Assembly (NCBI GenBank): GCA_029226975.1
Contig: JAQXZB010000031.1
Location: 1 to 38,565 of the forward strand
DNA: 38,565 bases
Direction: 5' to 3'
From: Clostridiales bacterium
GTDB lineage: Bacteria > Bacillota > Clostridia > UBA1381
Shown here piece after piece: positions 8,431-38,565 of the stretch. Position 1 is the first letter of the stretch. Each line of letters opens with the position of its first letter. The notes under the pieces were generated by a model. It had not been told where the DNA came from. It saw only the letters and a program-made list of their open reading frames with translations, and searched no databases. Position numbers and translations under genes: made by a program.

Positions 8431-8462
8431 TTAAAGCAAGGAACTGCGGGAGGCGAGCGGAT

Positions 8463-11565: not shown

Positions 11566-13038
11566 ATGGTGAAGGTGAGCAAAAGCTTTATTCCGGAGAT
11601 GGCAGTAAAGTGTTATGATTATTTTTGTACTTGGCAGTCACAAGCTGACGATGCGAAAAAAAAGTACGGTGACGTCAGAGATATGAGAAATAGCATAAAC
11701 AGCGAGTTTTTGTTTTCAGAGGATGGAATTTTAAAGAATTATTTCAAGGACAACCGCGAAAATATCATTGTTGTTTTAGATGATGGATGGGATGTTCCGT
11801 ACGATGCATCGAATTATGATTTTACGGATTGTTCGGCGTTTGGTTCGTTGGAACTGAACGAAGACAGATTTCCGCAGTTTGCGGGAGAGCCGAGAGAACG
11901 ACTGAAAAAGCTGTGCGACTGCATCAAGGGCATGGGATATGGCGGAGTCGGCATTTGGGTATGCGCAAATGCAGTGGGAGAAAAAGAGGGAAATTACTTA
12001 TCAGAAGCAAAAATGCGGGAATACTGGAAAGAACGTGCCAAATGGTGCGACTATGCCGGAGTTGAATATTGGAAAGTGGATTGGGGAATATATGAGCATG
12101 ATATTGCATTTAGAAAAATGCTGACTGAAACAGTACACGAATATGCCCCTAATCTAAAGATTGAACATTCCGTCCCGCAAGATGCATGGCATTTCGGAAC
12201 AGAAAACGAAACGATTATGGATGAATATGAGGGCGTTCTTCCGATTTCGGACTACTTTCGTACATATGATGTTTTGTCAAAGCTGGAAACGGCGGTGACA
12301 CTGTATCGGATAACAGAATGTGTTCATGCGATTGAAAGCGCAAACGCAAACGAGTGTATATTAAATGTGGAGGATGAGCTTGAAATTGCGGCTGCGCTGG
12401 GGTGCAGTGCGGGAATTATGCGCCATCCCAAATGGATGCCCGAACGGGATAACAAGATACGGGCGGTTTTGAACTGGCACAAGATTGCGCCGCCGTTTCC
12501 GCTGGGGGCAACGCCGATTAAGCTGTCGAAACAAACGCTTACAGATACATATTCGTTTGAGGGCTTGCGGGAAGGTCATTGGCTGTATGAGATTGCAAAC
12601 GGAAAAACGGCGGAGGTTGTATGTCCTGCAATTATAGCAAGAAATACCGAACTGCCGGTTGTGACATCAAAAGGAGAAGCACCGTTTGTCGTGTGCTCGC
12701 TAAATCCGTGTAGCGGAGCTTATACTATTGGATTTTTGAAAAGAACCTTTGGCGGGGCAGAAAGTCGAGAGCTTTTATGCGACGCGGAGATTCAATTGAG
12801 GGATTTTAAGGCGCCGATAGGCGTATTCGGCAGATTTTCAAAGATCACTGTGCGGTTTGATGAAAGCATAAGGGGCGCAAGGCTTTATATGCAAAAACTT
12901 GACACAGAGGAGACCTTTGATATTACACATTGTGTAAATGATGTCGGAAACAGCTTTACTATAAATTGGGATGAGCTTGTTGATAACGGGATTTTAATGG
13001 AAGCAAACGGAATTTTGCTTCAATTAGAGACCGAATAA
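11566..13038 (+). CDS. Clan GH-D glycoside hydrolase (alpha-galactosidase-like, GH27/GH36 related)
   Basis: This is a 490-residue cytoplasmic-looking protein with a TIM barrel of the alpha-galactosidase clan. VVLDDGWD is the strand-1 motif, then MGYGGVGIWVCANAVG, then EYWKVDWG, in which D172 aligns with the clan's catalytic nucleophile. RTYD (R232-x-x-D235) has the RxxD form of the acid/base motif of GH27/GH36. A C-terminal beta-sandwich follows from about residue 340. It is shorter than GH36 (about 700) and lacks the GH36 N-terminal beta-supersandwich, yet its motifs differ from ordinary GH27, so it may belong to a distant family. It is the first gene of the series; AAGGAG precedes the ATG. 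The substrate is unknown; an alpha-galactoside or a related alpha- or beta-linked sugar is likely. Confidence 0.75.
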   Translation: MVKVSKSFIPEMAVKCYDYFCTWQSQADDAKKKYGDVRDMRNSINSEFLFSEDGILKNYFKDNRENIIVVLDDGWDVPYDASNYDFTDCSAFGSLELNEDRFPQFAGEPRERLKKLCDCIKGMGYGGVGIWVCANAVGEKEGNYLSEAKMREYWKERAKWCDYAGVEYWKVDWGIYEHDIAFRKMLTETVHEYAPNLKIEHSVPQDAWHFGTENETIMDEYEGVLPISDYFRTYDVLSKLETAVTLYRITECVHAIESANANECILNVEDELEIAAALGCSAGIMRHPKWMPERDNKIRAVLNWHKIAPPFPLGATPIKLSKQTLTDTYSFEGLREGHWLYEIANGKTAEVVCPAIIARNTELPVVTSKGEAPFVVCSLNPCSGAYTIGFLKRTFGGAESRELLCDAEIQLRDFKAPIGVFGRFSKITVRFDESIRGARLYMQKLDTEETFDITHCVNDVGNSFTINWDELVDNGILMEANGILLQLETE

Positions 13039-13133
13039 AATTTTTAATAAAGGAGCGAGGAAAAATGATAAAATAGGAAAAACGATGTAAGAAGAAAATG
13101 AAAAAGAAAAAATTATTAAAAAGGAGAGGAAAA

Positions 13134-15476: not shown

Positions 15477-15492
15477 GATTTAAAATTATTTG

Positions 15493-15525
15493 TGCGGATA
15501 GTCGTTTAAAACTCGGCTATCCGCA
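15493..15525 (+). other. Stem-loop between the two 780-residue genes
   Basis: A perfect 9-bp inverted repeat (TGCGGATAG 15493-15501 / CTATCCGCA 15517-15525) is followed by TCTAAAAAAAG, without a T run on the plus strand. It could be a partial terminator or an RNA-stability element. Confidence 0.5.
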
Positions 15526-15625
15526 TCTAAAAAAAGATTCACATACAGAGCAATCTATGACATTGGGTATGGAGTATTAAAGATGACAGAGAGCTATAAG
15601 GCTTATGAAAAAGGAGTACGAAAAA

Positions 15626-17968
15626 ATGGTAAAAAGAAGTGTTGGTACGGTTAAACGATTGTCGGCGGTATTTCTTACCTTGTGTATGCTGACTGCAGCA
15701 GTGCCGGCGGGCGCAACAGGGACAGAGTATATACCTACGGGTAATGAACTTGATTCGCCCGGCGAAACAGTGGATACGACGCCCGCCGCAGATAAATTTA
15801 CGATAGACGGCAGGGGCTTTGTACTGCTTGATACATTTGATAACGATGAATCGGCTTATTATGTAACAACGACGGATGCCTATGGCGATATGGAGACGAT
15901 TTCAGATGGTACTGAGGGTGGATTTGAAAATCCCGCAGGGAAGCAGATTGACTATGATGCATACAAATCTGATGCGTTTTTAAACGGAGACTTTTTAACA
16001 AAGGGAAATAACTTCACTTCGCTTGGCAATGATACAACGACATATTATAAACTGCCGCAGGGGATTATTGATAACATTGACAACAATCATGTGTGGAAGA
16101 GATTTGTTAACGATTATCGATCCGGTACGGGAGTGAAGGGAGAATACACGACGGGTGTTTCATTGCTTTCTTGGACGGACTTTACCACATATGCCGGTAA
16201 ACTTGGCGCCGTAGACGGATTTTTGAATTCCAATGCATCAAACGCCGATGTGTACTTTCTTCGCGATACGAACAACTGGGGCGGCGATTCTGCTTTGGCA
16301 ATGTTTTGTACCGCAGATAAAAAATGCAAACATTGGGGGCAGTATGTAAGGAAGTACGGATTTTTAAGACCGGCGTTTTACTTGAAAAAGGACTTCTTTA
16401 AGACAACAAAAATCAATCTTGCGACTATGGGTAAAAATGTCAAAGAAGCTATCCGTACAGCCTGCACAGACGATGAACTGATTGAGCTTTACGGCGTACG
16501 GGACTGTAAGACTTACTTCGGAATGGATATTGATATTGCCTACATTGAGCTTTCGCTCAGAAACGGCAAGGACATAGGAGATGCAAATATTCTGGATACG
16601 GTTATCGCGACAGCGGAAAACGCAGTTGTGGATGAGTTTTGCTGGGAAATCAGCGATGACGATGGGAGCAATTGGTATAAGGCTGAGGACGAAACAGGAA
16701 ACAGCATTATTTTAACGGCAGAATATGCCGGTAAGCTGCTCCGCTGCAGAGCAGAATCAGACGGCGAGGAGATTAGCAGTGCAATCCTGAAAGTACCCAA
16801 TCCTGAAATTGCGCAGACCCAAAGCGCCAATCTTGATGGCTTCATGGAGGAAACGCCCGATAAGTACCGGTTCACGATAGACGGCAGGGGCTTTGTGCTG
16901 CTTGATACCTTTGATAACGACAAATCGACCTATTATGTGACGACAACGGAAGCCTACGGTGATATGCAGACCCTGGCGGTAGAGAGCGGAGATTTTGAAG
17001 TTCCCACAGGGAAGCAGATTAACTATGACGCATACAAATCCGATGCATTTTTAAACGGAAGCTTTTTAACAAACGGAAACAACTTTTCTGTACTAAGCGA
17101 TGACACTAAAACCTATTACAAGCTGCCGCAGGGAATTATTGATCACATAAACAAAGACCATGTATGGTGGAGATTTGCCAATGCTGCCATGCAGAGCGAA
17201 AAAGGCGTTTTGCCTACATACAAAACAGGTGTTTCACTGCTCTCTTGGACAGATTTTATGACGTATGCGGGTAAACTTGGTGTGACGGAAGTATTTGACG
17301 ATGCCAATGTAAAATTTGACAATATCGAGAAGGCGTATTATCTCCGCGATACAAACAACTGGGGCGGCGATTCCGCATTAGCGGTTCTTTGTGCCGGGAG
17401 TAATGCGGTGGGCTGTACATTTGTAGGTGTAGGCGCTCAGAAAGCAGGACTTTTGAGACCGGCATTTTATTTGGACAAGGATTTCTTTAAGACCGTAAAA
17501 ATCGACCTTTCCCAAACAGGTGAAACGATTTTGGATATGATGCGCGAAAGCTATTGTGTTGAGGACTTGACCGAACTGTATTCGGAAGAGGAATTAACCG
17601 AAAAGGGATTTTTGCACAGATATTCCATGCGGGCGTCTTACACGCAGTGCAACGATAGCAAAGAGCTTACATCTCTTGCCGGTGTGTCAAGCCTTCAGGC
17701 AAATGTTACAATCAGAAACCGCAGCAACAGTGAAACGAATGCATTACTTTTACTGGCGGTGTACAAAGAAAACGGCAATATGATAGGAATTGCAAAGAAA
17801 GAGGTTAGATTAGAGGCGCAGAGCGATACGGAAAGCAGTGTGGCTATAGAGTCTCTTCCGGAAGGAGTTACAGATAAATATAAGGTGAGTGTAATGCTAT
17901 GGGACAACGTGCATGAAATGTACTCGTTTACCGGCAACAAACTTACATTTGATAATAAGGGCAGATAA
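15626..17968 (+). CDS. Secreted protein with two DUF6273-like repeats (paralogue of the preceding gene)
   Basis: This is a 780-residue exported paralogue of the previous gene with the same length and architecture: signal peptide nearly identical in its core (FLTLCMLTAAVPAGATGTEYI), repeat B1 (57-302), an Ig-like module (about 303-395; CWEISDDDGSNW, EYAGKLLRC), repeat B2 (413-664), and the C-terminal beta domain (KVSVMLWDNVHEMYSF). The ATG at 15626 is preferred because AAGGAG (15611-15616) is 9 bases away; an ATG at 15605 lies upstream of that site. The pair arose by tandem duplication followed by divergence, especially in the Ig module. No enzyme motif or surface anchor is visible, so it is either released or held by a neighbouring SLH protein (inference). 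Confidence 0.8.
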   Translation: MVKRSVGTVKRLSAVFLTLCMLTAAVPAGATGTEYIPTGNELDSPGETVDTTPAADKFTIDGRGFVLLDTFDNDESAYYVTTTDAYGDMETISDGTEGGFENPAGKQIDYDAYKSDAFLNGDFLTKGNNFTSLGNDTTTYYKLPQGIIDNIDNNHVWKRFVNDYRSGTGVKGEYTTGVSLLSWTDFTTYAGKLGAVDGFLNSNASNADVYFLRDTNNWGGDSALAMFCTADKKCKHWGQYVRKYGFLRPAFYLKKDFFKTTKINLATMGKNVKEAIRTACTDDELIELYGVRDCKTYFGMDIDIAYIELSLRNGKDIGDANILDTVIATAENAVVDEFCWEISDDDGSNWYKAEDETGNSIILTAEYAGKLLRCRAESDGEEISSAILKVPNPEIAQTQSANLDGFMEETPDKYRFTIDGRGFVLLDTFDNDKSTYYVTTTEAYGDMQTLAVESGDFEVPTGKQINYDAYKSDAFLNGSFLTNGNNFSVLSDDTKTYYKLPQGIIDHINKDHVWWRFANAAMQSEKGVLPTYKTGVSLLSWTDFMTYAGKLGVTEVFDDANVKFDNIEKAYYLRDTNNWGGDSALAVLCAGSNAVGCTFVGVGAQKAGLLRPAFYLDKDFFKTVKIDLSQTGETILDMMRESYCVEDLTELYSEEELTEKGFLHRYSMRASYTQCNDSKELTSLAGVSSLQANVTIRNRSNSETNALLLLAVYKENGNMIGIAKKEVRLEAQSDTESSVAIESLPEGVTDKYKVSVMLWDNVHEMYSFTGNKLTFDNKGR
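15794..16530 (+). repeat. DUF6273-like repeat B1
   Basis: The full landmark set is present: YKLPQGIIDNI, LLSWTDFTTYAGKLG, FLRDTNNWGGDSALAMF, CKHWGQYVRKYG, FLRPAFYLKKDFF. Confidence 0.75.
16862..17617 (+). repeat. DUF6273-like repeat B2
   Basis: The landmarks are all kept, with local variants (LSWTDFMTYAGKLG, FYLDKDFFKTVKIDLSQTGET). The end matches C3 better than B1, indicating that first and last repeats form position-specific subtypes. Confidence 0.75.
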
Positions 17969-18021
17969 ACAGTAATGTTTTATGTACAATGGAACGGCGT
18001 AAAGCCAAAGGAGGAAACTTG

Positions 18022-21000
18022 ATGAAACGTTATTTCCTTGCTGTTATAACAGCGTTTGCACTGATATGTAATGTTGTTCTTGCAGATGGAATACCTATGC
18101 AAGCGGTTGGATATAGTTTGGAATCGGACACTGCTGTCGGTGAATCAATTTATGAAACCGAGCTTAGTTTAGACGGTTATGCAATGGGTACGAGGGTAAC
18201 ATATACCGTATCGGATGGCACGGAGAGTGTAAACGCTGATGTTACAATCAGAAGCGAAAATTCAGAGGAAAAGAATGCTGTGCTGATTTTTAAGGCGTTA
18301 AATTCAAATGGTAGGTTTTATTTGACGACAACGCCGGTTAAAATAGGGGCAAATGGAGAAACATCTGCGGAAATTTCCCTGAACGGACTCGAAAATGCGG
18401 CTGATGGATACCGGTGGAGTCTGTACCTATGGGATGCTTTCGATACATTAAAACCATTGACAAAAAGCCTGACAATTCTTCAAAACAGCGATGCGATGGT
18501 TGATGTGTCTGTTTCTGTGCGCAGAGGGGCAGCGCTTTCGGAGGTTAAATTGCTTGATACCTTGGTTGCGGGTGTGAACACAAATATGCAAGCAGCTTAC
18601 CTGTGGCAGATCAGCCATGACGATGGAGCAAGCTGGACGGACATCGAGGGTGAAACCTCGGCGGCGCATATCGTAAGTGCGGCTGAAGCGGGTGCGAAGG
18701 TACGCTGTGCGGTCACAGAGGACGGATATATGTATGCGGCAAGCACCGCGGTACAAATTCCGAATTATGAAGTTAATGCGACGGGTGACGGGATTGCCGC
18801 ACCTGTTGGTACGGTGGATACAACGCCCGATGCGGATAAATTTACGGTTGACGGCAGAGGATTTGTACTGCTTGATACATTTGATAACGATGAATCGGCT
18901 TATTATGTGACGACAACGGATGCCTATGGTGACTTAAATGTACTTACAACCGGTGATTTTGAAAATCCCACAGGAAAGCAGATTAACTATGATTCATACA
19001 AATCCGATGCGTTCTTAAACGGAGAATTTTTAACAAACGGAAATAACTTCACTTCGCTTGGCAATGACACAACAACCTATTATAAACTGCCGCAGGTGAT
19101 TATTGATAACATTAACAAAAATCATGTGTGGAAAAGATTTGTTAACGATACTCGATTCGGTGCAGGAGTGCTGAGAGAATACAAAACGGGTGTTTCATTG
19201 CTTTCGTGGACGGATTTTACAACATATGCCGGTAAACTCGGCGTGATGGATGTATTTAATGACGTCAATACGAAAGAAGCCAATGTATACTTTCTCCGCG
19301 ATACAAATAATTGGGGCGACGATAATGCTTTAGCGCTTTTCGGCGCAGAGAAGTATGAAAAAAAGTGTGTGCATAAGGGCTGGTATGTTGAGGAGTACGG
19401 GCTTTTGCGACCGGCATTTTATCTGAAAAAGGACTTCTTTAAGAGTACAAAGCTTGATTTAAATGCAGCGGGCGAAAATGTCAGGGCAGCTATACGCAAT
19501 GCCTGCACAGATGAAGATTTATTCAGGCTTTACAATTCGGAGGAGTGTAAGAAATACTTTAACATTGAAAACCCAATCAAAGTCACAACAGCTGTGCGCA
19601 GCGGGGCAGAGCTTGCTGATGTGAAGCTGCTTGACACCTTGACTGCAAGCGTGAGCGACGGTGAGGCGACCGAATATAAATGGCAGATGCGGATGAGTGA
19701 AGGCGACAACTGGACTGACATCGAGGGTGCGACATCAAATGAGTATATTGTAAGCGCGGCGCAGGCAGGTGCGCAGGTGAGCTGTGTGGCAAAGGTGAAT
19801 GACGGGTGGATTTACAGCGAAGCTGTACAAATTCCAATGTATGAAGCTAATGCAACGGGTGCTGACGCTGCTGCACCCGAGGAAACGGTTGATACAACGG
19901 CCGGCGCAGATAAATTCACAGTTGACGGCAAGGGGTTTATACTGCTTGACATCTTTGATAACGATGCGTCAACTTATTATGTGACAACGACGGACGCTTA
20001 CGGTGATATGCAGCTGAAAACAGATGGCGAATGGTGGACGCTTTCGGGCAAGGAAATTAACTATGACGCATATAATTCCATTGCGTTTTTAAACGGAGAC
20101 TTTTTAACAGAGGGAAATAACTTTACTTCGCTTGGCAATGACACAAAAACCTATTATAAGCTGCCGCAGGGAATTATTGATAACATAAACCAAAACCATG
20201 TGTGGTGGAGATTTGTCAATGACTACAGAAAACAAGAAGGTGCTAAGAGTACATACCGGGCAGGAATTTCATTCCTTTCGTGGACAGACTTTACTACATA
20301 TGCCGGTAAACTTGGCGTCAAAGACGGATTTTTGAATTCCGGTGCGGCGAATGCCGATGTGTATTTTCTCCGCGATACGAACAACTGGGGCGGTGATACT
20401 TCTTTAGCACTGTTTTGTACCGCAGATAAACAATGTAAACATTGGGGGCAATATGTAAGGCAGTACGGACTTTTAAGACCGGCGTTTTATTTGAAAAGGG
20501 ACTTCTTTAAGACGACAAAAATCGACCTTGCGACTATGGGCGAAAATGTTAGAACAGCTATTCGTGAGGTTTGTACCGACGAGGACTTGAAAAAACTTTA
20601 CACTGAGGAAGAGTGCGAGGACTATTTCGGGATTGTGCGCCCGTTAAGCGTCAAAACAACGGTACGCAGCGGAATGCCCCTTGAAGATGTCGAGCTTCTC
20701 GACACCTTAACGGCAAGTGTGAACAAAAATGTGGCGGCAGATTACCGGTGGCAGGTTAGCCGTAACAACGGAGCAAGCTGGGCGGACATTGTCGACGAAA
20801 CTTCGACGGAGTACATTGTCAGTGCTGAGGAAGCCGGTGCGCTGGTGCGCTGTACGGCAACGGTAGCCGGGAATGCAGTCAGCGGAGAAGCGGTACAGAT
20901 TCCAAATCCCGCTATCAAGACGCCGGAACCTGTTAATCTCGATGCTTTTGCGGAAAAAACACCGGATAAGTTTCGTTTTACGGTTGAAGGTAAGGATTTT

Positions 21001-23319
21001 GTGCTGCTTGATACCTTTGATAATGACGAGTCAGCCTACTATGTGACAACTGTGGATGCCTACGGCGATATGCAAACAATTACAAACGGAGCAATTCCTG
21101 TGGGGAAGAAGATTAACTACGATGCATATAAATCCGACGAATTTTTAAACGGTGATTTTTTGACAAAGGGAAATAATTTCACTTCGCTTGGCAATGATAC
21201 AACAACCTATTACAAGCTGCCGCAGGGAATTATTGATAACATAAACAAAAATCATGTGTGGTGGAGATTTGTCAATGATTACAGGAAGCAAAATGGTGTG
21301 CAAAGCACATACAAAACGGGTGTTTCGTTGCTTTCATGGACAGATTTTTCGGCATATGCAGAGAGAATCGGACAGTTGGATGTATTTAACGATGCTAATG
21401 TTAAAAACGCCGAGGTGCTGTTCCTTCGAGATACAAACAATTGGGGAGGCAATAGTGCTGTAACGGTATTCGGAACGGGAAAGTATGAGAACAAATGTAT
21501 ATATGTTGAAAATCAGTCCGAAAACCCCTTTGGTCTTTTGCGCCCGGCATTTTACCTAAAGAAGGATTTCTTTCAGACCGTAAAACTTGACCTTTCTCAA
21601 ACCGGCGAAAGCGTTTTGGACGTTATGCGCGGAAGATATTGTATAGAAGATCTGATAGGTATTTATACGGAGCAGGAGCTGACAGAAAACGGATTTAGAC
21701 GAAAGGGAGAAACCGACGGCAATACATTGGAAATAGAATCAATTGCCGTAGGAAATGTTTTCACCGATGCGGAGGATGCCAAAATAAGAATACATTCCTC
21801 GTCACCTGCCGTTTGTTATCGTATTACGGATTATAACGGCGCGCTTGTAAAATCCGGTACCGCAAATACGGTATATGATTTTGCGGAATTGAATTTCAAC
21901 AGTCTTGATGTGGGATATTATGAGCTTTCCGTTCAAAACGGCGATACCTTTAATGACAGTGCCGAGAAAAAAATTACATCCCTTGCGATTATTCCGGAAT
22001 ATGATTTTTCGGAGGTGATGAATTCACCCTTTGGAATCAATACGCATTTTGAATTGAATTGGCTCGGATGGGATATAAAAACGATTTCACTTCTTAAAAA
22101 AGCCGGTGTAAAAAGCGTGCGTGACGGATATGAATGGAACAGCATGGAATCTGAGGTCAAGGGAGAATACAAGAACTATAATTTCTTTCCGTATGAGCAA
22201 GCAAGACTGCGACAGGCAGGTATTGACTACCTTTATGTAGCGGGCTCGCATAACAAGTTCTATGATAACGGGGCTTCACCGTATACCGACGAGGGAATAC
22301 AGGGGCTTGCGAATTACGCGAAGAAGGCGACCGAATTATACAATTATCACTACGGCGATTATAAGCTGAAATATATGGAAATGTACAATGAATGGTACAC
22401 TTCCGCCGGAGATAAGGGAGATGGTCCTGCGGACTCGTCACCCGAGAATTATATTAAAGTGTTTCAAAAGATGTATGAAACCGTTAAGACGGCATACCCG
22501 AATATGACCATGTTTTTGAATATTTATCCGCAGGAAACAAATTCCGAAGGGTTATTGAAACTTGGGGGATTGAATTACTGCGATGGATATGCAATTCATC
22601 ACTATAATTATTCGCTTAATAACGAAGACCCGGAAAATCCCGAATGCGGCCTGGGTTCGGCGATAGACAAAACGCAGGATATGATTGCAAAATATAATAC
22701 CAATAATAAGGAAATGAAATTCTGGCTCAGTGAGTTTGGCTGGCCTACGGTATCGGCACCCGACTGGGGAGTTCTGATTACAGACAAGGAACAGGCAGAG
22801 TATCTTGTAAGAGGTTTTGCGGTTGCTTTGTCCAAGGGCATGGAGCGAGTATATTGGTATAATTTTATGAACAACCGAGATCCAGAGCATATGTATGAGG
22901 ATGATTGTGAGAAGCACAAGAAAAACGGCGATTTTAATTATGGGTTGATTAGGAATGGACTTGACCAAACATACGGAGCGCATGCGCCCAAGAGAAGCTA
23001 TGTTGCTTATGCGAATATTACCAGAGAACTTGCAAACAAGAGGTTTGTAAATTTGGATAAGGCAGACGATGGAACAGGCGCGGCGTATTATTATCATTTT
23101 GAAGGCGCCGGCGGCAAGACCACGATTGCATATTATGCTGTGCTTGACGGAAGCGAGGAGAAACCTTCGAAGAACATTACCATTACAGCAAACGAAAGCG
23201 TAGTGGTGAAAAACATCGAGGGGAAAACTTTGAAAATCGCATCGGCGGGAGAGGATATTACATTAGCATTATCTTCAGCACCTATCTATATTGAGGGTGG
23301 ATACACAGTGAAACAATAA
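18022..23319 (+). CDS. Giant secreted protein: three DUF6273-like repeats fused to a clan GH-A glycosidase
   Basis: This is a 1765-residue exported protein. Domains in order: signal peptide (KRYFLAVITAFALICNVVLA); the FLWD-type beta domain (about 70-155) that ends the two upstream proteins; Ig-like module (159-250); repeat C1 (273-515); Ig-like (516-610); C2 (631-871); Ig-like (872-970); C3 (983-1228); a linker beta domain (1229-1325); a TIM barrel (about 1328-1660); and a C-terminal beta-sandwich. The barrel has clan GH-A hallmarks: MEMYNEW with acid/base candidate E1457 after Asn, and WLSEFGW with nucleophile candidate E1571. I cannot place it in a numbered GH family; it resembles GH39-like and related enzymes. 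The ATG at 18022 has AAAGGAGG just upstream. It sits 24 bases before the SLH gene in a tight series. The array presumably positions the hydrolase on a polymer or surface. Confidence 0.82.
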   Translation: MKRYFLAVITAFALICNVVLADGIPMQAVGYSLESDTAVGESIYETELSLDGYAMGTRVTYTVSDGTESVNADVTIRSENSEEKNAVLIFKALNSNGRFYLTTTPVKIGANGETSAEISLNGLENAADGYRWSLYLWDAFDTLKPLTKSLTILQNSDAMVDVSVSVRRGAALSEVKLLDTLVAGVNTNMQAAYLWQISHDDGASWTDIEGETSAAHIVSAAEAGAKVRCAVTEDGYMYAASTAVQIPNYEVNATGDGIAAPVGTVDTTPDADKFTVDGRGFVLLDTFDNDESAYYVTTTDAYGDLNVLTTGDFENPTGKQINYDSYKSDAFLNGEFLTNGNNFTSLGNDTTTYYKLPQVIIDNINKNHVWKRFVNDTRFGAGVLREYKTGVSLLSWTDFTTYAGKLGVMDVFNDVNTKEANVYFLRDTNNWGDDNALALFGAEKYEKKCVHKGWYVEEYGLLRPAFYLKKDFFKSTKLDLNAAGENVRAAIRNACTDEDLFRLYNSEECKKYFNIENPIKVTTAVRSGAELADVKLLDTLTASVSDGEATEYKWQMRMSEGDNWTDIEGATSNEYIVSAAQAGAQVSCVAKVNDGWIYSEAVQIPMYEANATGADAAAPEETVDTTAGADKFTVDGKGFILLDIFDNDASTYYVTTTDAYGDMQLKTDGEWWTLSGKEINYDAYNSIAFLNGDFLTEGNNFTSLGNDTKTYYKLPQGIIDNINQNHVWWRFVNDYRKQEGAKSTYRAGISFLSWTDFTTYAGKLGVKDGFLNSGAANADVYFLRDTNNWGGDTSLALFCTADKQCKHWGQYVRQYGLLRPAFYLKRDFFKTTKIDLATMGENVRTAIREVCTDEDLKKLYTEEECEDYFGIVRPLSVKTTVRSGMPLEDVELLDTLTASVNKNVAADYRWQVSRNNGASWADIVDETSTEYIVSAEEAGALVRCTATVAGNAVSGEAVQIPNPAIKTPEPVNLDAFAEKTPDKFRFTVEGKDFVLLDTFDNDESAYYVTTVDAYGDMQTITNGAIPVGKKINYDAYKSDEFLNGDFLTKGNNFTSLGNDTTTYYKLPQGIIDNINKNHVWWRFVNDYRKQNGVQSTYKTGVSLLSWTDFSAYAERIGQLDVFNDANVKNAEVLFLRDTNNWGGNSAVTVFGTGKYENKCIYVENQSENPFGLLRPAFYLKKDFFQTVKLDLSQTGESVLDVMRGRYCIEDLIGIYTEQELTENGFRRKGETDGNTLEIESIAVGNVFTDAEDAKIRIHSSSPAVCYRITDYNGALVKSGTANTVYDFAELNFNSLDVGYYELSVQNGDTFNDSAEKKITSLAIIPEYDFSEVMNSPFGINTHFELNWLGWDIKTISLLKKAGVKSVRDGYEWNSMESEVKGEYKNYNFFPYEQARLRQAGIDYLYVAGSHNKFYDNGASPYTDEGIQGLANYAKKATELYNYHYGDYKLKYMEMYNEWYTSAGDKGDGPADSSPENYIKVFQKMYETVKTAYPNMTMFLNIYPQETNSEGLLKLGGLNYCDGYAIHHYNYSLNNEDPENPECGLGSAIDKTQDMIAKYNTNNKEMKFWLSEFGWPTVSAPDWGVLITDKEQAEYLVRGFAVALSKGMERVYWYNFMNNRDPEHMYEDDCEKHKKNGDFNYGLIRNGLDQTYGAHAPKRSYVAYANITRELANKRFVNLDKADDGTGAAYYYHFEGAGGKTTIAYYAVLDGSEEKPSKNITITANESVVVKNIEGKTLKIASAGEDITLALSSAPIYIEGGYTVKQ
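18838..19566 (+). repeat. DUF6273-like repeat C1
   Basis: Complete copy; LPQVIIDNI replaces LPQGIIDNI, and the block before LRPAFYLKKDFF reads CVHKGWYVEEYG. Confidence 0.75.
19912..20634 (+). repeat. DUF6273-like repeat C2
   Basis: Complete copy of the A2 subtype (KTDGEWWTLSGKE, CKHWGQYVRQYG). The preceding Ig-like module is also nearly the same as the one before A2, so an Ig-plus-repeat unit has been copied as a block. Confidence 0.75.
20968..21705 (+). repeat. DUF6273-like repeat C3
   Basis: Complete copy leading into the glycosidase part. The SWTDF block is altered (SWTDFSAYAERIG) and the end (DLSQTGESVLDVMR) is of the B2 type. Confidence 0.75.
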
Positions 23320-23343
23320 GAGTAAAGTTAAGGAGGAAACTTG

Positions 23344-25044
23344 ATGAAACGGTATTTAATTGCTGTTGTGACAGTGTTCGTGTTAATATTAAACATTGGT
23401 TTTGCAGCAGAAGCATCTGTGCAAACGGTAAAATACGACACAGAAAATGAAATTCTGACTGTTAAAGGCAGTGCAGATTCAAAAATGCAGTCAATATCTT
23501 TAGAGGTGCTAAAGGGCGGAGTGACTGCCGGACAGTTTGATTTTGCCGACGCTGAAGAACGATTCAATATGCTTGTGCATGCAGATGAAACGCTGAGCGC
23601 AGATGATGGAAGCTGGCAATTCAGCTTTGGATTTCCGGCAGACTCCAAACGGCACGTCATCCGCGTTCGGACGGGAATAAACGGGGAAATTGAACAGCGC
23701 AGTATTGTTGCGGCAACGAACAGTGAGTTTGAAACTGCAATGGAGATGATGAACAGCGCCGGCTCTAATGATATTTCGGATGTACTGAAAAAATGTGCGG
23801 GAATTCTTGGCTTGGATTGTGATACACTTGAAATGCTGCCTGATAAAAATTGCGATGCAATGGCACTGAGAATATTAAACGAACGTGATAAACAGCAAAA
23901 CAAGGTATTTGCCGGATATGAGCAGCTTGAAGCGGTATTCAATGAGAACCTTGCTGTTGAATGTGTGAACGTTGCCGACGGGAGTAATATTGCGGCAGTA
24001 TTGGAAAAATACAAAGAATACTTTACATATAAAAACGGAAAATCGTATCAGATTTTTGAGGGTTTAAGTGCAGACAGTCAAAAAAATGTTTATACAAATC
24101 TCGCAAAAGCAGATTACGGCAGTCCGGCGGCAGTTGATACAGCGTTCGGATTGGAAACGGTACGGGTCAGACTTGCGGCGCTTCGCGGGTATGATGAATT
24201 GTATGATGTTCTTCCGCAATGCGCAGATGCTTTAGAGGCGAATATTTCAAAATATACGGCGCTTTCAAAGGAAAATCAGCTGAAGGCTTGCTCCGAAATC
24301 ATAACAAACCTGTTAGGAAAAGATGTTACAAAGGAATCTTTGGAAACAATCGTAAGCAGTGCCGCTGAGAAATACAGCTCTAACGGAACAACGGGCGGCG
24401 GCTCCGGTGGCGGCGGCGGAAACGGCGGAGGAACAGTGTCGACGGGCACAACATCTCAAACTCCGAATATTGATGTTGCAGCGCCAAATAAGCCGTATGG
24501 CAGTTCTTCGCTATTCAATGACATTGGAAGTGTTTCGTGGGCACAAGACAGCATCGAGGAATTGGCAAGACGCGGCGTTATCAACGGAAAGGCGGATAAA
24601 ATCTTTGCGCCGAACGATACGGTAACGAGGGAAGAATTTGTGAAGATGGTTGTGCTGGCGCTAAATATTACGGCAGAGGACACAAGCTGTGATTTTACTG
24701 ACGTAATAGATGATGCTTGGTACAAAGAGTATGTCGGCAGGGCTGTGGGAAGCGGTCTTGTGAACGGTCATGGAGACGGAACTTTTGGCGTGGGCGAGAA
24801 TATAACAAGGCAGGACATCGCAGTTATTTTGTGGAACGGTATTAAGAGTAAAGTAGGAAACGGAAGTGCGGCTGCTTTTATTGACAACGATGATGTTTCA
24901 GACTATGCAAAAGAGGCGGTAAATGCGATGCGGTATTTAAATATCATTGACGGATATGAAGATAATACATTTCGACCAAGCAACGCCGCGACGCGGGCAG
25001 AGGCGGCAAAACTTCTGTACAAAGCTGTGCAGATAGCGGAATAG
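23344..25044 (+). CDS. Secreted protein with three C-terminal SLH domains
   Basis: This 566-residue exported protein has a signal peptide (KRYLIAVVTVFVLILNIGFA), an N-terminal Ig-like beta domain (about 22-120), a mainly helical region (about 125-345), a Gly/Thr/Ser linker (about 349-368, GGGSGGGGGNGGG), and three SLH domains (about 385-566). The SLH repeats show LFNDIGSVSWAQDSIEELARRGVI, DFTDVIDDAWYKEYV and FRPSNAATRAEAAKLL. SLH domains bind pyruvylated secondary cell-wall polymer, so the protein is displayed on the envelope with its N-terminal parts outward. It could be a docking partner for the repeat proteins upstream (inference). The start is ATG 23344; its ribosome site and first residues copy those of the giant gene. 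No catalytic motif is seen. Confidence 0.88.
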   Translation: MKRYLIAVVTVFVLILNIGFAAEASVQTVKYDTENEILTVKGSADSKMQSISLEVLKGGVTAGQFDFADAEERFNMLVHADETLSADDGSWQFSFGFPADSKRHVIRVRTGINGEIEQRSIVAATNSEFETAMEMMNSAGSNDISDVLKKCAGILGLDCDTLEMLPDKNCDAMALRILNERDKQQNKVFAGYEQLEAVFNENLAVECVNVADGSNIAAVLEKYKEYFTYKNGKSYQIFEGLSADSQKNVYTNLAKADYGSPAAVDTAFGLETVRVRLAALRGYDELYDVLPQCADALEANISKYTALSKENQLKACSEIITNLLGKDVTKESLETIVSSAAEKYSSNGTTGGGSGGGGGNGGGTVSTGTTSQTPNIDVAAPNKPYGSSSLFNDIGSVSWAQDSIEELARRGVINGKADKIFAPNDTVTREEFVKMVVLALNITAEDTSCDFTDVIDDAWYKEYVGRAVGSGLVNGHGDGTFGVGENITRQDIAVILWNGIKSKVGNGSAAAFIDNDDVSDYAKEAVNAMRYLNIIDGYEDNTFRPSNAATRAEAAKLLYKAVQIAE

Positions 25045-25065
25045 ATTAGCACAGGAGGAGCAGTT

Positions 25066-27798
25066 ATGAAAAAAATCAACAAAATAGTTTCTTGCATATT
25101 AACAGTCATGTTGATTGTGACAAATTTTACAGTTGGAGTATATGCAAAAACGGAAAAAACCGTAAGTGACGACTATAGACAATATGAGGCTCGCGTTCTG
25201 CATGATTTAGGTATCATCGATACAGATATGCAAATCGAACAAAATATGTCGAGAGCGGAATTTGCGGGAGTATTTGCAAAGTTTATGAATATCAATGCAG
25301 ATACGGCAGTTAATATGGCGGATGTAGCGGATATAGAAGATGAGTATATATATGCTCCGTCAATCAGACTGATGCTGGATAGGGGATATATGTCTCTTGA
25401 CGGAAAGAAGAATTTCTTCCCCGGAAGCGCCGTTACATATGCCGATGCGGCTATGGCATTGGTTAAGGCACTCGGTTATGAACCTTATGTCAGTGCAAAA
25501 GGAATCAGTGCCTACGGATATATCGATTGTGCTATGCAGATAGACATAGAACTTGCAGGGAAAGGGGAAAAAGACTCTCTGACATACGGCGATGTAATTC
25601 ACTTGCTGTTTTCTGCACTTGAGGTCAGTATCCTTGAAGCAAGGACCTATTCTTCAGAAAAAATTGAATATACAAATCGTGCCGGAAAGACACCGCTGAG
25701 CGAATGGCATGATGTTTATGTGACAAAAGGAATTTTATATAACATTGAAAATGGTACGGCGAGCGTTACTGTCGATAAAATCGGCAAAGAAGCCGTCAGG
25801 ATAGGAGACGGGATATACAGTGTCGGACAGGTGAAAGCTGCTGAATTTTTGGGATATGCGGTTAAGGGCTATTATTACGGCGGAAACAGAACGCCGGAAA
25901 ATGAATTGGTATCGATTATTCCGCTGCGCGGCAAAAACGAAATTACAAGTATAGATGCAGAGGACATTGTAAGCTATAAAGACAATGTTTTAACCGTTAA
26001 CAACGGAAACAGAAACAAGCAGTACGATATATCTCCGGCTACCGATGTCATTTATAACGGCGAAGCGGTAAGCTACGAAAACCGAGACAAGGCACTGAAT
26101 ATCGACTGTGGAACAGTGTTGATTAATGAAGTGAATTTTGACGGTGTAGATTCGGTAGTGATTGTAACGGCCTATGAAAACTATGTGGTAGGAGCAATAG
26201 ACAAAGAAAAACAAATTGTTTACGATAAACTGGATAACAACAGAAGTCTTAGCCTGCGTGATGATAACAGCGACGTTAAGATTAAAGAAACAAACGGAAA
26301 GATTATCAATCTTGAAAATCTTAATGTTGGCGATGTTTTGACTGTTGCCGCAAGCTTGGGCTCAATGAGAATAGAAGTTATCCGAAGCAATCAAAAGATA
26401 ATCGGAAATATATCCGAAAGAGGCAAGGAAGGCACAAAAGATGAGTATATAAAGATTGATGGCATCACGTATTCTGTTGCTAAAAACTATCGTGATTCAA
26501 AGACCGAACGCCTAAATTTAAATGCACCGGTATCTGTTACTTTGGACACATGGGGAAAGGTGGCGGACATTTCCGATGTAGATATGAGCGGATATAAGAT
26601 TGGCATATTAAAGACGGTGGGGATACTGGATCATTTAAGCCCTGAGAGACTTTCTATGAGAATTTTTGACAGAGATGGAAAAATGAGGGTTTATGAATCG
26701 ATAGATCGTGTGGTAATAGACAATTATCGTACAAAAACTGCAGAAGAAGCGAAAAATGTTTTGGAATCGGTAACCGGAATATCCGTTTATCAGCCGATAC
26801 GGTATTTATTAAATTCCGAAGGTCTGGTTTCAAATATTGACACGACATATTATAATGAAGCTGCGGGCGAGTCCGAGCAGAGTCTGCGGTATATCTGGCG
26901 GTCTTATAAAGACGACTATACAACTCGCGGGTATGGAACGGATATACAGTATATGTATTGGGCGAATAAAAATTTCGGCAGAAAATTTTTTGCGGGTCAG
27001 TGGGCGACGCTCATGAAGCTGCCGAGACAAAATACTGCCGATAATAAGTTTTTTGTCACCGAGGCTGAATGGGTTAGCGGAAGGTATTATTATGTTGACG
27101 CACTGGCAGTGGGGCGTGATAATTTTTGTGCCGATGTTGTGATACAGTATTATGACGCAGCAGAGGGCAGCACCGAGGGTCAAACGCTTCGTTACGGTCT
27201 GGTGACGGAGGTTGTATATGCAATGGATGACGATGGGGGAACTGCTTATAGAATTTCGTATATTGATGGGTACGGCGGCGGTACCCGAACAGAGTTTGTC
27301 GACAGCGACTGCAGCATAACAGACGCTGCGTCTGTCAAGCCGGGCGATACTAATACCTATCAAATATCCGAAGGCGATTTTGTTCGCTTTTCAACCGGTG
27401 CCGGAGACATGATTGTTAATGCCCAAGTCATATATGATGCGGAAACCGGAATGTGGGCAAGTGATATGCCGCATATCAGAGATGACAGAACAGAAGGAAT
27501 TGTAAACTGCAACATGGAGGTTAATGAGCTGTTCCACGGATATGTACTTCAGAATGAAAATTCCTATATACGTCTTTCAGGCGAAAAGCCGGACAATGTT
27601 ACAGATTCCATTATGGATAGTGCGTATGTGTTTAAAATTACAAACGCCACAGTCTATAAATATAATTCGCGCACAGGAAAACTTGTAGCTGTAGATGCTT
27701 CGGAAATCATTCCGTTTGAATATTCATATGGCGATTGCTCTGAGGTAATTACGGGTGATTTGGGCGGCTTAACACCGTTCGTAGTAATTTATAATTGA
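25066..27798 (+). CDS. S-layer-like protein with degenerate N-terminal SLH domains
   Basis: This 910-residue exported protein has a signal peptide (KKINKIVSCILTVMLIVTNFTVGVYA), then about 170 residues with three divergent SLH repeats (MSRAEFAGVFAKFMNI, FFPGSAVTYADAAMALVKALGY, LTYGDVIHLLFSAL). The remaining 700 residues are predicted beta-rich with no enzyme motif, with alternating short segments such as GDVLTVAASLGSMRIEVI and a C-terminal half containing several Tyr/Trp-rich blocks. This layout is common in S-layer or envelope structural proteins of Clostridia. It lies 21 bases after the SLH gene and 17 bases before the SLH-hydrolase gene, so it is co-transcribed. A structural role is inferred; I cannot name a family for the large region. 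Confidence 0.8.
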   Translation: MKKINKIVSCILTVMLIVTNFTVGVYAKTEKTVSDDYRQYEARVLHDLGIIDTDMQIEQNMSRAEFAGVFAKFMNINADTAVNMADVADIEDEYIYAPSIRLMLDRGYMSLDGKKNFFPGSAVTYADAAMALVKALGYEPYVSAKGISAYGYIDCAMQIDIELAGKGEKDSLTYGDVIHLLFSALEVSILEARTYSSEKIEYTNRAGKTPLSEWHDVYVTKGILYNIENGTASVTVDKIGKEAVRIGDGIYSVGQVKAAEFLGYAVKGYYYGGNRTPENELVSIIPLRGKNEITSIDAEDIVSYKDNVLTVNNGNRNKQYDISPATDVIYNGEAVSYENRDKALNIDCGTVLINEVNFDGVDSVVIVTAYENYVVGAIDKEKQIVYDKLDNNRSLSLRDDNSDVKIKETNGKIINLENLNVGDVLTVAASLGSMRIEVIRSNQKIIGNISERGKEGTKDEYIKIDGITYSVAKNYRDSKTERLNLNAPVSVTLDTWGKVADISDVDMSGYKIGILKTVGILDHLSPERLSMRIFDRDGKMRVYESIDRVVIDNYRTKTAEEAKNVLESVTGISVYQPIRYLLNSEGLVSNIDTTYYNEAAGESEQSLRYIWRSYKDDYTTRGYGTDIQYMYWANKNFGRKFFAGQWATLMKLPRQNTADNKFFVTEAEWVSGRYYYVDALAVGRDNFCADVVIQYYDAAEGSTEGQTLRYGLVTEVVYAMDDDGGTAYRISYIDGYGGGTRTEFVDSDCSITDAASVKPGDTNTYQISEGDFVRFSTGAGDMIVNAQVIYDAETGMWASDMPHIRDDRTEGIVNCNMEVNELFHGYVLQNENSYIRLSGEKPDNVTDSIMDSAYVFKITNATVYKYNSRTGKLVAVDASEIIPFEYSYGDCSEVITGDLGGLTPFVVIYN

Positions 27799-34977: not shown

Positions 34978-35889
34978 ATGAAACGATTTGATAATAAGCA
35001 AACGGGGCTGCTCAGTAGCTCCGATCTTAAAGCTTTTAAGGGGAAACTGATATATTGGCTGTTTTTTGCAATTCTGCTGATAACATGTTTCATAGCGGTT
35101 TTCCCTGCAATATGGACAATACTGACAGCATTTAAAGATACGCGGGAAATTTACGATACATTCAGTTTCTTTCCGAAAGATATGTCGTTGGGAAATATCG
35201 GCCGTCGTCTGTCGGAAGCATGGAATGAGCTTCAACTGGCAAATTCATTTTTAAATACGATCGTAATGTCTCTGGGGAGTCTTGTGTCAACCATAATTGT
35301 TTGTGGATTTGGCGGGTATGTTTTGTCAAAACTTAGACCGAGAGGCTCTAAATTGATATTTCCCCTTGTGGTATGGACAATGATGATGCCGGCGCAGATG
35401 CGTATTGTGCCGAACTATATTACCATGCTTCACTTTCCGTTTGCATATGATTTTGGGGCCGGCATGAGTTTGCTTGACACATACTGGCCGATGTGGCTGA
35501 GTGCAGCCGCAAACGCATTTAACATTATATTGTTTAAAAATGCGTTTGACGGGCTTTCACAGTCATATGTGGAAGCAGCCCAGTTAGACGGCTGCGGAAA
35601 CTTCGGGATTTTCTTCCGCATTATGTTCCCTCTGGCAAAGCCTGTAATTATATATGTTGCAATCGGAACACTCAGCGCTGCATGGTCGGAATTTTTTGAA
35701 CCGATGCTGTATTTAGATAAGAATGTGGTTACGCCGCTTAAAGTATACAGGATGCAGTTAGATAATAAAATACAGATGAATATTAAATTTATGGGTCTTG
35801 TATTAGCGAGTATCCCGCAGTTTTTAATATTTATCATCTTTCAAAGACATATCTTGGGCGGTATCAATATCGGTGGCGTAAAAGGATGA
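34978..35889 (+). CDS. ABC sugar transporter permease (CUT1, LplC/MalG-type)
   Basis: This is a 303-residue second permease subunit with the usual hydrophobic N-terminal segment (LIYWLFFAILLITCFIAVF), the FxFFPKDMS opening and the EAA loop VEAAQLDGCGNFGIFFRIMFP. The length and the MMMPAQMRIVPNYI block fit the LplC/MalG group. AAGGAGGGGG precedes the ATG. It is the last intact gene of the long series; immediately beyond its stop the sequence turns into gene fragments. Confidence 0.94.
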   Translation: MKRFDNKQTGLLSSSDLKAFKGKLIYWLFFAILLITCFIAVFPAIWTILTAFKDTREIYDTFSFFPKDMSLGNIGRRLSEAWNELQLANSFLNTIVMSLGSLVSTIIVCGFGGYVLSKLRPRGSKLIFPLVVWTMMMPAQMRIVPNYITMLHFPFAYDFGAGMSLLDTYWPMWLSAAANAFNIILFKNAFDGLSQSYVEAAQLDGCGNFGIFFRIMFPLAKPVIIYVAIGTLSAAWSEFFEPMLYLDKNVVTPLKVYRMQLDNKIQMNIKFMGLVLASIPQFLIFIIFQRHILGGINIGGVKG

Positions 35890-35896
35890 GTGCGAT

Positions 35897-36046
35897 ATGA
35901 TGAGAGCAAGAATGGATGAGTATGTGGAGATATGCAGACAACTTGCCGATAAACATAACTGTATTTTTGTGGATTTTCAGAAGATGTATGAAGAGTATTG
36001 CAAAATTCGTCATTCATCCTATATAGCGTGGGACAGGGTGCAATAA
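35897..36046 (+). pseudogene. C-terminal fragment of an SGNH/GDSL esterase
   Basis: This 49-codon frame reads MRARMDEYVEICRQLADKHN, then CIFVDFQKMY and ends HSSYIAWDRVQ. It is recognisably the last part of an SGNH-hydrolase domain (rhamnogalacturonan acetylesterase-like), stopping exactly where the catalytic Asp-x-x-His block (WDRVHPN) should be. The His is replaced by a Gln codon at the join with the AAA-ATPase relic. About 150 upstream residues, including the nucleophilic Ser block, are missing. Not functional. Confidence 0.75.
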
Positions 36047-36073
36047 GGTATGCTTTGCGGTAACTGAATAAAG
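36041..36073 (+). repeat. 33-bp relic of an AAA-ATPase gene 3' end (copy 2)
   Basis: It is identical over 33 bases to the end of the AAA-ATPase gene (10130-10162), including its stop codon. It begins inside the last codons of the SGNH fragment, so the two gene ends have been joined at a CA microhomology. Confidence 0.9.
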
Positions 36074-36082
36074 TAATATTTA

Positions 36083-36127
36083 GGCGTCATGCTCTTGTAC
36101 ATTACATATGCGCAAGAGCAGGATGCC
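36083..36127 (+). other. Imperfect hairpin
   Basis: Inverted repeat of 15 bases with 13 matches (36083-36097 and 36113-36127) and a 15-base loop, without a T run. It may be a former terminator of the lost gene. Confidence 0.4.
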
Positions 36128-36144
36128 GCTGAATTCGAAGGTAA

Positions 36145-36573
36145 TACGGGGGTTTATTGAACGGATACTTTAGTTTTCGAAAAGCCCCTCTGCAAGTATA
36201 TGCGGCGGAATGTACGGAAAACAAAGAGGTGAGGGAAGGGCATACGATTGAGCCTCATATTATATCAGCATTAAAGTACATAAATAAGAATTATAAAGAA
36301 AATATATCTCTTGACGATATATCTCAGGCGGTGCATATGAGCAAGTATTATTTTTGCAGGAATTTCCATGAAGCCACAGGAGCGACGGCGCTTGAATATT
36401 TGAACAACGTGAGGTTTACGAAGGTGCATAATCTATTGATCAATACGAGTATGACGATTGATGAAATTGCGTCGGGGACGGGTTTTATGTCAGCGGTAAA
36501 TCTTACAAGAGCTTTCAAAAAAGTATACGGAATGGCTCCGCGGGAGTTCAGAAAATTAAACAGACGTGATTAA
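36145..36573 (+). pseudogene. AraC-family regulator C-terminal DNA-binding domain, N-terminus missing
   Basis: The open frame encodes an almost complete AraC/XylS double HTH (ISLDDISQAVHMSKYYFC and IDEIASGTGFMSAVNLTRAFKK, ending MAPREFRKL). It has only about 35 residues before it, so the usual 150-residue sensing domain is absent. No ATG with a ribosome site exists. A TTG at 36157 follows GGGGG at only 4 bases, and a stop lies at 36142. It is either a decayed regulator or, less likely, a small stand-alone DNA-binding protein. Its location in a fragment tract favours decay. Confidence 0.6.
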
Positions 36574-36578
36574 ATAAA

Positions 36579-36616
36579 AGGGCATTGCATACCATTTCGG
36601 GTGCGATGCCTTTTTT
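36579..36616 (+). terminator. Terminator after the AraC fragment
   Basis: GGCATTGCA (36581-36589) pairs with TGCGATGCC (36602-36610), with one G-U pair, and is followed directly by TTTTTT. Confidence 0.8.
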
Positions 36617-36730
36617 GGGGCAATTTTTGTCTGATATTGAAAAAATTACGGCAATATTTATATGGTTTTGTATCTGTATATTCTGTATAATTTTTATATA
36701 AGAATAAATTTGAATACGGAGGTATATGCC

Positions 36731-36790
36731 ATGAAAAAGCCGTATAAGGATGCGGGAACGGCATATATCAATAAAATGGAGGGACGGTAA
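36731..36790 (+). pseudogene. 19-codon peptide, possibly the start of a lost GH3 gene
   Basis: An ATG 8 bases after GGAGG (36718-36722) opens a 19-codon frame beginning MKKPYKDA and ending INKMEGR. The first eight residues resemble the usual opening of GH3 beta-glycosidases; the rest does not. It stops one base before the GH2 start. It may be a relic start fused to other sequence, or a translated leader. The evidence is weak. Confidence 0.35.
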
Positions 36791-36791
36791 A

Positions 36792-37673
36792 ATGGTGAGA
36801 TTATTTGAAACACACCATGTAAGACGGACATATGAACTTGACGGAATATCGGATTTTGAGATGGAAGGCTTTGACAAAAGCTATCAGCTTCCCGTACCCG
36901 GCTGCTGGGAGCAGCACCCGGATTTTATGCAGCACAGAGGAAAGGGGATATACAAAAGAAAGGTTTATATCAAGCAATCGGGAAACATACGCCTTGAATT
37001 TAAGGGCGTGAGCCATACGGCGGACGTGTATTTTGACGGTGAAAAAACAGCTCATCATTACAATGCATTCACTCCGTTTAATGCAATAGTAAAGAATGTT
37101 TCAGAGGGTGAGCATGAAATTATGGTTGAGGTGGATAACACCTTCGGCGAACACAGCGCGCTGCATATTCCGAATGACTATTACACCTACGGCGGAATTA
37201 CAAGACCCGTTTCGCTTGAAAGTATCCCGGATGTATACATAAAAAATGTACATTTCACGCCTTATCGCAAAAACGGAAAATGGAATGCAAAAATTGAAGT
37301 TTGCGTATGCAATCTGTCGGACAATGCTGTAAAAGTCGGCGTCAGAAGTATGCTTGATAAATACGGAATGAGCGATATTGTGCTGCTAAGCGGCAGCAGT
37401 GAAACAGCTGTTGTATTTGAGCAGGAATTTGATGATGTTAAAGCATGGTCAAATGAGATGCCGAATTTGTATATGTTAAATACCGCTCTTTTGATAGATG
37501 ACAGGGAAGTTGACGATTTAATTGAGCGTGTCGGATTCAGAACAGTAGAGGTCAGGGACGCTAAAATATACTTAAACGGTGAGCCGATTTATCTCAAGGG
37601 CTTTAAGTATCGCAGACCTAAAATAGCATATGACATTGTAAAGAAAATGTTTAAAAAATACGGAGGTAATTGA
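36792..37673 (+). pseudogene. GH2 beta-glycosidase lacking its catalytic barrel (in-frame internal deletion)
   Basis: This 293-residue frame has a good start (GGAGGG at 36778-36783, 8 bases before the ATG). Residues 1-170 are the GH2 sugar-binding jelly roll (VPGCWEQHPDF, GIYKRKVYI, YTYGGITRPV). About 175-270 form the Ig-like domain ending in the hallmark ERVGFRTVEV and IYLNGEPIYLKGF. In GH2 enzymes that motif leads straight into the TIM barrel (LKGFNRHE). Here it jumps to KYRRPKIAYDIVKKMF, which is the end of the GH2 barrel (normally EYRRPK). Some 280-300 residues, including both catalytic Glu, are gone but the frame is kept. The protein could at most bind glycan. It is 2 bases from the following truncated GH115 gene. 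Confidence 0.8.
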
Positions 37674-37675
37674 TT

Positions 37676-38203
37676 ATGAAAAGGGTAATTTCTGCTATAA
37701 TTGCATCAGCGCTGATGTTTTCATCTCTATCGTTTTTTGCTTTTGCGGATGCCCAAGCCGCTGATTTGGGAACAGTTTCCGCGGCTGTTTCGGGATATGT
37801 GAGCAGCACGGAAGGAGATATAGAAATCGCATCAAAAACAAAAACACCGAATATCTATGTTGATACGGAAAATGATTATGCAGGCGTAATTCGTGCGGCA
37901 GAGGATTTGAAATCGGATATAAAGGCGGTTACGGATGTTGCGGCAAATGTTTTTGCGGACGCTGAAAATGCCGATATTATTGTGGGAACAATAGGGAAAT
38001 CAGACGCTGTAGACGCTCTTATAGCGAAAAATAAGCTTGATGTTTCCGAAATAGAAAATCAATGGGAAGCCTTTACGGTGCAAAACATTGACGGTCGGCT
38101 TGTAATTGCCGGTGCGGATAAGCGCGGCACAATCTACGGCATATATGACCTGTCCGAAAAAATGGGTGTTTCGCCCTGGGAATGCAAATGTACCAAACAA
38201 TGA
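37676..38203 (+). pseudogene. N-terminal fragment of a secreted GH115 alpha-glucuronidase
   Basis: This 175-residue frame starts at ATG 37676 (GGAGG 9 bases upstream) with a signal peptide (KRVISAIIASALMFSSLSFFAFA). It continues with the GH115 N-terminal domain: VIRAAEDLKSDIKAVTD, ADIIVGTIGKS, LVIAGADKRGTIYGIYDLSEKMGVSPW. GH115 enzymes (removing glucuronic acid from xylan) are 800 residues or longer. Here the sequence breaks right after GVSPW, where the catalytic barrel should begin, and ends in eight unrelated residues. The DNA continues in another frame as an esterase fragment. Not functional as a hydrolase. Confidence 0.78.
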
Positions 38204-38565
38204 TTTTGTTGCGGTAACGGATTCTCAGTATCCTATACGCTTTACAGTGAGTGTTGAAAACGGCGGTTATTATAATGTAAAGGTTACTCTTGCCAATGCC
38301 AGTCAGACAGAGCCGGCAGTGGTATCGCTGTTTACGGAACGCAGACATCAGCTTTTGACAAATGCCGAAATTCCCGCAGGCGGGACCTTGGAATACGAGT
38401 TTAATGTTGACGTTGAAACATACTATTGGAACAGCACAAAGGCAGGCTTTAAAGAGGGTGACTACTTATATATTGAGTACGGTCATAATGAAACAAGCGT
38501 TGACAGCTATAAAGAAAATCTTGAAAAGTATTATACAGAGTGCTATAATAAGGGTGTAAAAATGA
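38178..38565 (+). pseudogene. Rhamnogalacturonan-acetylesterase-like SGNH fragment, runs off the window
   Basis: In the frame containing 38193, open to the window end, the sequence reads NVPNNDFVAVTD, then YYNVKVTLANASQTEPAVV and LFTERRHQLLTNAEIP. This is the beta domain that precedes the SGNH domain in a class of rhamnogalacturonan acetylesterases. After FNVDVETYYW it passes at once to EGDYLYIEYGHNE and LEKYYTECYNKGVK, the middle of the SGNH domain. The block with the nucleophilic Ser (GDS) is missing, which suggests another in-frame deletion. The start of the gene is also lost, being joined out of frame to the GH115 fragment. Confidence 0.65.

Follow-up and report, generated by a model that had tools for sequence, protein, structure and literature searches.

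The window, that is, the whole stretch of DNA analyzed here, is the entire contig C31 (38,565 b) of G000, a 2.80-Mb genome in 123 contigs that is 97.9% complete. Between 35,890 and 38,565, all genes are incomplete, lie on the plus strand, and are joined head to tail, as the initial annotation had noticed. The pieces are listed in Table 1 together with the flanking permease gene; domains were called from Pfam profile matches. The pieces meet at eight joins: ~35890-35894 (J1), 36041-36042 (J2), 36150-36190 (J3), 36740-36765 (J4), 37605-37606 (J5), 38184-38193 (J6), 38430-38434 (J7), and, in contig C115, ~L030:4857 (J8), the positions of J1, J3, J4, and J6 being approximate rather than resolved to the base. 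At least seven internal segments are missing, each of 0.28 to ~4.5 kb.

Table 1. Gene pieces in the tract at the right end of the window, with the flanking intact gene
Feature	Position	Strand	Basis or remark
ABC sugar-transport permease, intact, left flank of the tract	34978..35889	+	BPD_transp_1, PF00528
SGNH/GDSL esterase fragment, ~aa 145-194 of 226	35894..36042	+	weak PF13472
AAA-ATPase_like/PDDEXK_9 3' end, last ~8 codons and downstream hairpin	36041..36150	+	
AraC regulator, C-terminal DNA-binding half only	36184..36573	+	PF12833, E 3.9e-22
Intergenic stretch 3' of araC and ATGAAAAAG start	36620..36739	+	tblastx
Probable last codons of a GH28 gene	36765..36791	+	INKMEGR-stop vs IRKPEGR-stop of the G006 GH28
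GH2 N-terminal sugar-binding and immunoglobulin-like domains, 271 aa	36792..37605	+	PF02837, PF00703
GH2, last 22 codons	37605..37673	+	in-frame join at J5; TIM barrel gone between
GH115-SGNH giant gene, signal peptide and GH67N-like N-terminal domain only	37676..38184	+	PF03648
GH115-SGNH giant gene, aa ~1464-1547	38184..38431	+	out-of-frame join at J6
GH115-SGNH giant gene, aa ~1640-1684	38430..38565	+	in-frame join at J7

The permease is collinear with a paralogous locus of G000 on contig C15, where a complete SGNH gene follows it. In the window, the SGNH piece between J1 and J2 lacks its first ~430 b; its nucleotide sequence is 93% identical to an SGNH gene that is intact in G031 (L046), a genome of a different genus. 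This piece had been described as an SGNH C-terminus; it is indeed SGNH, but the last ~32 codons are gone as well. The AAA-ATPase 3' end proposed next to it is real and consists of the last codons and hairpin of a multicopy family, with 96% identity to the copy on C73 and 88% to that on C122. Members of this family, intact at 8403-10160 of the window and also found near the ends of C115, C73, C122, C8, and C42, have a conserved hairpin after the stop codon, and some stand at contig ends, giving 141-b assembly forks. The AraC piece has lost its sensor half, as first reported: ~150 N-terminal residues are missing relative to homologs of 276-279 aa that are intact in G001, G052, G006, and G016. 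Downstream of it, the stretch 36620..36739 has tblastx matches at L039:1239-1358 and L038:12467-12378, and the ATGAAAAAG start is that of the giant SGNH gene in G006. A possible GH3 start had been suggested here; among the sequences compared, no GH3 gene begins like 36731-36755, a very short stretch. GH28 is otherwise absent from the tract.

The GH2 N-terminal piece shares 74% amino acid identity with the intact 555-aa GH2 of G052. Intact GH2 genes carry PF02836, and the segment covering the TIM barrel is missing from the window; the absence of the barrel noted at the outset thus amounts to a loss of 786 b at J5, checked against more than 20 intact relatives. The first GH115 piece is 75% identical at the amino acid level to the GH115 of G006 and of G001. 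A GH115 N-terminus and an SGNH gene without its first part had been annotated as separate genes; both pieces are present, but they belong to one giant GH115-SGNH gene (2,458+ aa), which is intact in G049. The tract does not stop at the end of the window. The last 100 b of C31 are also the end of C115, where the chain of scraps goes on: at J8, part of the SGNH region runs in frame into UxaC, of which the C-terminal 40%, beginning near residue 290, is left; complete UxaB and UxaA come next, and then an AAA-ATPase gene cut by the contig end.

The comparison with close relatives that the initial annotation had proposed yielded intact versions of the cluster in G001, which belongs to the same genus as G000, and in G006, G049, and G057. 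The gene order is AraC-GH28-GH2-SGNH-GH115 in G001, AraC-SGNH-GH28-GH2-GH115 in G006, and GH2-GH115-SGNH-UxaB-UxaA in G057; in G049, a 2,479-aa GH115-SGNH frame is followed by a complete UxaC. The scraps keep the order and strand of these clusters, running collinearly through AraC-GH28-GH2-GH115 and the Uxa genes, with GH28 represented by its probable last codons only. The initial annotation had seen gene types of a polysaccharide locus; the order is that of a pectin/uronate cluster. A separate truncation occurs in G016, where a second GH2 gene (L049 13283-14215, on G016:C74) breaks off near residue 305; it neighbors an intact copy and an oppositely oriented GH2-type gene.

Parents of the junctions were inferred from relatives at 70-93% identity. 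On this basis, the losses are 579 b at J1 (vs C15), 1.3 kb (vs G001) to 5.1 kb (vs G006) at J4, ~4.5 kb at J6 (relative to G057), about 284 b at J7 (near 38432), and ~3.3 kb at J8 (vs G049). Complete catalytic domains (GH2 barrel, GH28, GH115, and the UxaC N-terminus) are absent from the tract, and most of the truncated enzymes should be inactive, since most of them lack their catalytic parts. Elsewhere in G000, the missing GH28, GH2, and GH115 parts have no close counterpart, which argues against their lying on separate binned contigs, though weakly, as contigs below ~2 kb seem to be unbinned. UxaC has a second, intact copy on C32 (L215, G000:C32:15000-18500). It first looked deleted, having 423 aa instead of the usual ~466 aa because two loops are shorter; it is a complete variant and probably the working copy of G000.

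A second locus in the family is shattered in a similar way. The cluster has a close relative in G052, a chicken-gut MAG of Ca. Ornithomonoglobus merdipullorum from the same taxonomic family as G000. In its locus L051, on G052:C72, at least seven segments are missing from inside genes: 484 b at 8414, about 960 b at 11066, 1,454 b at 11997, 764 b at 12127, 2,392-2,394 b at 12409, 346 b at 13041, and 512 b at 13220. Like the window, L051 consists of collinear scraps with several internal deletions and without decay in what is retained. Unlike the window, it lies mid-contig between intact flanking genes and has complete AraC and GH2 genes, and none of its seven breakpoints coincides with one of the window. 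The tract is 88-91% identical (82% in one short piece) to L045, the relative locus taken as its parent, vs 78% for the ClpC flank. Such shattering is confined to G000 and G052 among the ~45 family genomes that carry relatives of the giant gene; both loci are known from metagenome assemblies. The tract is more than a chance pattern: the GH2 deletion stands against more than 20 relatives, the ~93 kb of other G000 sequence that can be aligned to G001 held nothing like this series of joins, and L051 was the only further case in 537 kb of family loci. A genome-wide phenomenon in G000 was rejected, as the apparent hits in those ~93 kb were repeat proteins or weak matches.

Could the short proteins be functional in their own right, as split or carbohydrate-binding mini-proteins? 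Open frames of 307 and 220 aa do run across the GH2 and SGNH-UxaC joins, which are in frame. Yet J6 is out of frame, the AraC and SGNH pieces lack start regions, the breakpoints in G052 differ, and none of the window joins recurs in 100 relatives. The finding that would have spoken for such proteins, a relative in which they are conserved, did not emerge, and the GH2 junction is likewise missing from viral contigs. We regard functional mini-proteins as highly improbable.

The sequences at the joins bear on whether the tract exists in cells at all. The bases common to both sides number two (CA) at J2, one at J5, two at J7, four at J8, and at most seven at J6; resolved window joins share 0-4 bases and those of L051 share 0 to ~12. 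Compared with the L045 parent, three L051 joins share 5, 8, and 8 bases, the first of which could reach 12 b if synonymous differences are allowed for, and the others share 0-1. Under a simple random model, the probability of at least five common bases is 0.006 per junction and that of at least eight is 0.0002. Microhomology of 1-9 nt above chance is clear at three L051 junctions and weak in the window, with parents inferred from relatives in both cases. At J5, the left side falls in GFNRHED and the right side in VDEYRRP, both conserved across relatives, so the shared length there cannot be long. No resolved junction of the window or L051 lies at a repeat of k or more bases. Collapse of repeats in a de Bruijn graph was rejected since the joins share at most a few bases, and scaffold gaps with the N removed are disfavored by the 5-8 bases that three L051 junctions share with the parent. 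A scaffold wrongly assembled from many related loci, which the initial annotation had offered as the alternative, finds no support either: the pieces follow a single cluster order and the ABC-SGNH operon preceding it, and the joins have no k-mers in common.

A different artefact deserves more weight, namely that an intact locus received few reads, for instance, because a minority strain carries it, and that isolated pieces were welded into a collinear skeleton by chimeric molecules or by some assembly step that escaped notice. Contigs of G000 typically overlap at their ends by 141 b precisely, the value that MEGAHIT would give with k=141, from which we infer the assembler. The end of C31 at which the tract stands, in turn, shares 100 b with C115; with an overlap shorter than k, low coverage is a more probable cause of the break than a repeat. 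Both shattered genomes would then be MEGAHIT metagenome assemblies, as reported for G052 (PMC8035907). The smallest window pieces (~149, ~140-148, and ~168 b) are near a read length of 150 b, as deduced from k=141, and the scraps show no relaxed constraint. On the other hand, with only 1-2 bases shared at J5, J7, and J2, a graph with k of at least 21, or overlap merging, would need reads that span the junctions. Moreover, eight consecutive joins by random chimeras are unlikely, the L051 tract is mid-contig between intact genes, and the other long genes in the window contig are intact. We consider such an artefact a serious possibility, though probably not the correct explanation.

The retained pieces show no signature of decay. 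None of the coding pieces in the window or L051 contains a frameshift or internal stop. For L051 against L045, dN/dS is 0.107 overall (dS 0.52) and 0.03-0.07 in four of six pieces; the higher value of piece 12134-12401 is inflated, because a small in-frame length difference misphases part of the ungapped comparison. Lineage-specific counts give 27 synonymous and 36 nonsynonymous changes for the window GH2 vs 39 and 31 for its sister and 25 and 7 for L051 vs 32 and 12 for L045; thus, nonsynonymous changes do not clearly rise in the affected lineages at these two loci. At ~90 otherwise invariant GH2 sites, the window differs in one (W20S). Slow, ordinary pseudogene decay, in which random mutations pile up in a cluster no longer used, would agree with the plain disabling lesions, the redundant UxaC, and the general deletion bias of bacteria (PMC2916853), but large deletions are the only lesions present, and frameshifts, stops, and relaxed constraint are all missing. 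We therefore find slow decay improbable. The initial proposal that a large cluster shrank by repeated internal deletions captures the pattern; gradual shrinkage is unlikely, as the tract has neither small lesions nor relaxed constraint. Either the deletions are very recent, or they occurred in one episode, or they are not real.

Positions 13,262-34,166 of the window are 87-93% identical to contigs C231 and C125 of G001, vs mostly ~65-78% in other alignable G000-G001 sequence, and probably represent a recently exchanged island. This region encodes several large proteins (490-1,776 aa) without a Pfam match as well as SLH-domain proteins; five proteins encoded at 11566-27798 (490, 792, 787, 1776, and 910 aa) have no match at 1e-5. 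Together with the 93% identity of the SGNH piece to a genome of another genus and the higher identity of the L051 tract relative to its ClpC flank, this match suggests horizontally exchanged islands in both genomes.

One conceivable source of breaks is the cell's own CRISPR-Cas system. At L216 (G000:C108:31000-34406), G000 carries cas4-cas1-cas2 and an array of at least 10 repeats that is cut by the contig end; we take the repeat to be type I-C-like. Repeated cutting of the island by this system, followed by end joining, has a precedent: after Cas3 targeting, part of an island can be lost, with the ends joined at 7 nt (PMC3630108). However, the spacers read from the incomplete array match neither the cluster nor its relatives better than expected by chance, and we give this explanation hardly any credence. 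Joining of the Ku type is unlikely, as no Ku gene was found in G000, G001, G049, or G052, while the Bacillus subtilis control was recovered. Alternative end joining with 1-9 nt of microhomology, including partial island deletions, has been described in bacteria (PMC3630108).

The reading that we place first, with about an even chance of being right, is that a pectin/uronate gene island once stood here and was recently cut down to the present tract by seven or more internal deletions. The original island would have comprised the ABC transporter, SGNH, AraC, GH28, GH2, the giant GH115-SGNH gene, and UxaC-UxaB-UxaA. The deletions would be present in cells, broken or slipped DNA having been joined at little or no homology, and would be recent or stem from one episode; the loss may have been tolerated because the island was dispensable and the lineage did not need it. 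More tentatively, and in our view unlikely, a deletion-only process could repeatedly break exchanged pectin islands in this family, quickly turning them into ordered scraps without point lesions. If the deletions are real, accessory carbohydrate islands would be removed by bursts of internal deletion rather than by point mutation or excision of the whole island, twice independently in one family, which would bear on how fast exchanged gut gene clusters are lost. If they are not real, the two loci would exemplify a class of MAG error in which collinear skeletons of giant genes are annotated as short novel proteins. Comparison with relatives and contig overlaps below k would reveal such errors.

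Among the closest known systems are the intact pectin clusters that G001 (C139), G006 (C190), G057 (C31), and G049 (C160), all of the same family, carry. They share the genes, strand, and nearly the order of the window, with 65-80% amino acid identity in the retained parts, but have full frames (GH2 of ~555 aa, GH28 of ~413 aa, and GH115 of 1,595-2,479 aa) where the window has lost internal segments. The deletions described in PMC3630108 are, like those proposed for the window, large and located within an accessory island; they are joined at 1-9 nt of microhomology, a feature that is weak in the window. They are single deletions under imposed targeting, whereas the window has many in one tract and no matching spacer was found. 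Salmonella pseudogenes (PMC2916853) resemble the tract in that the genes are inactive and worn down by deletions, in a genome biased toward deletion. There, however, 346 of 378 have one lesion, and few have lost more than 20% of their length. By that standard, the tract is abnormal: its lesions are all large deletions, with two or more of them in several genes.
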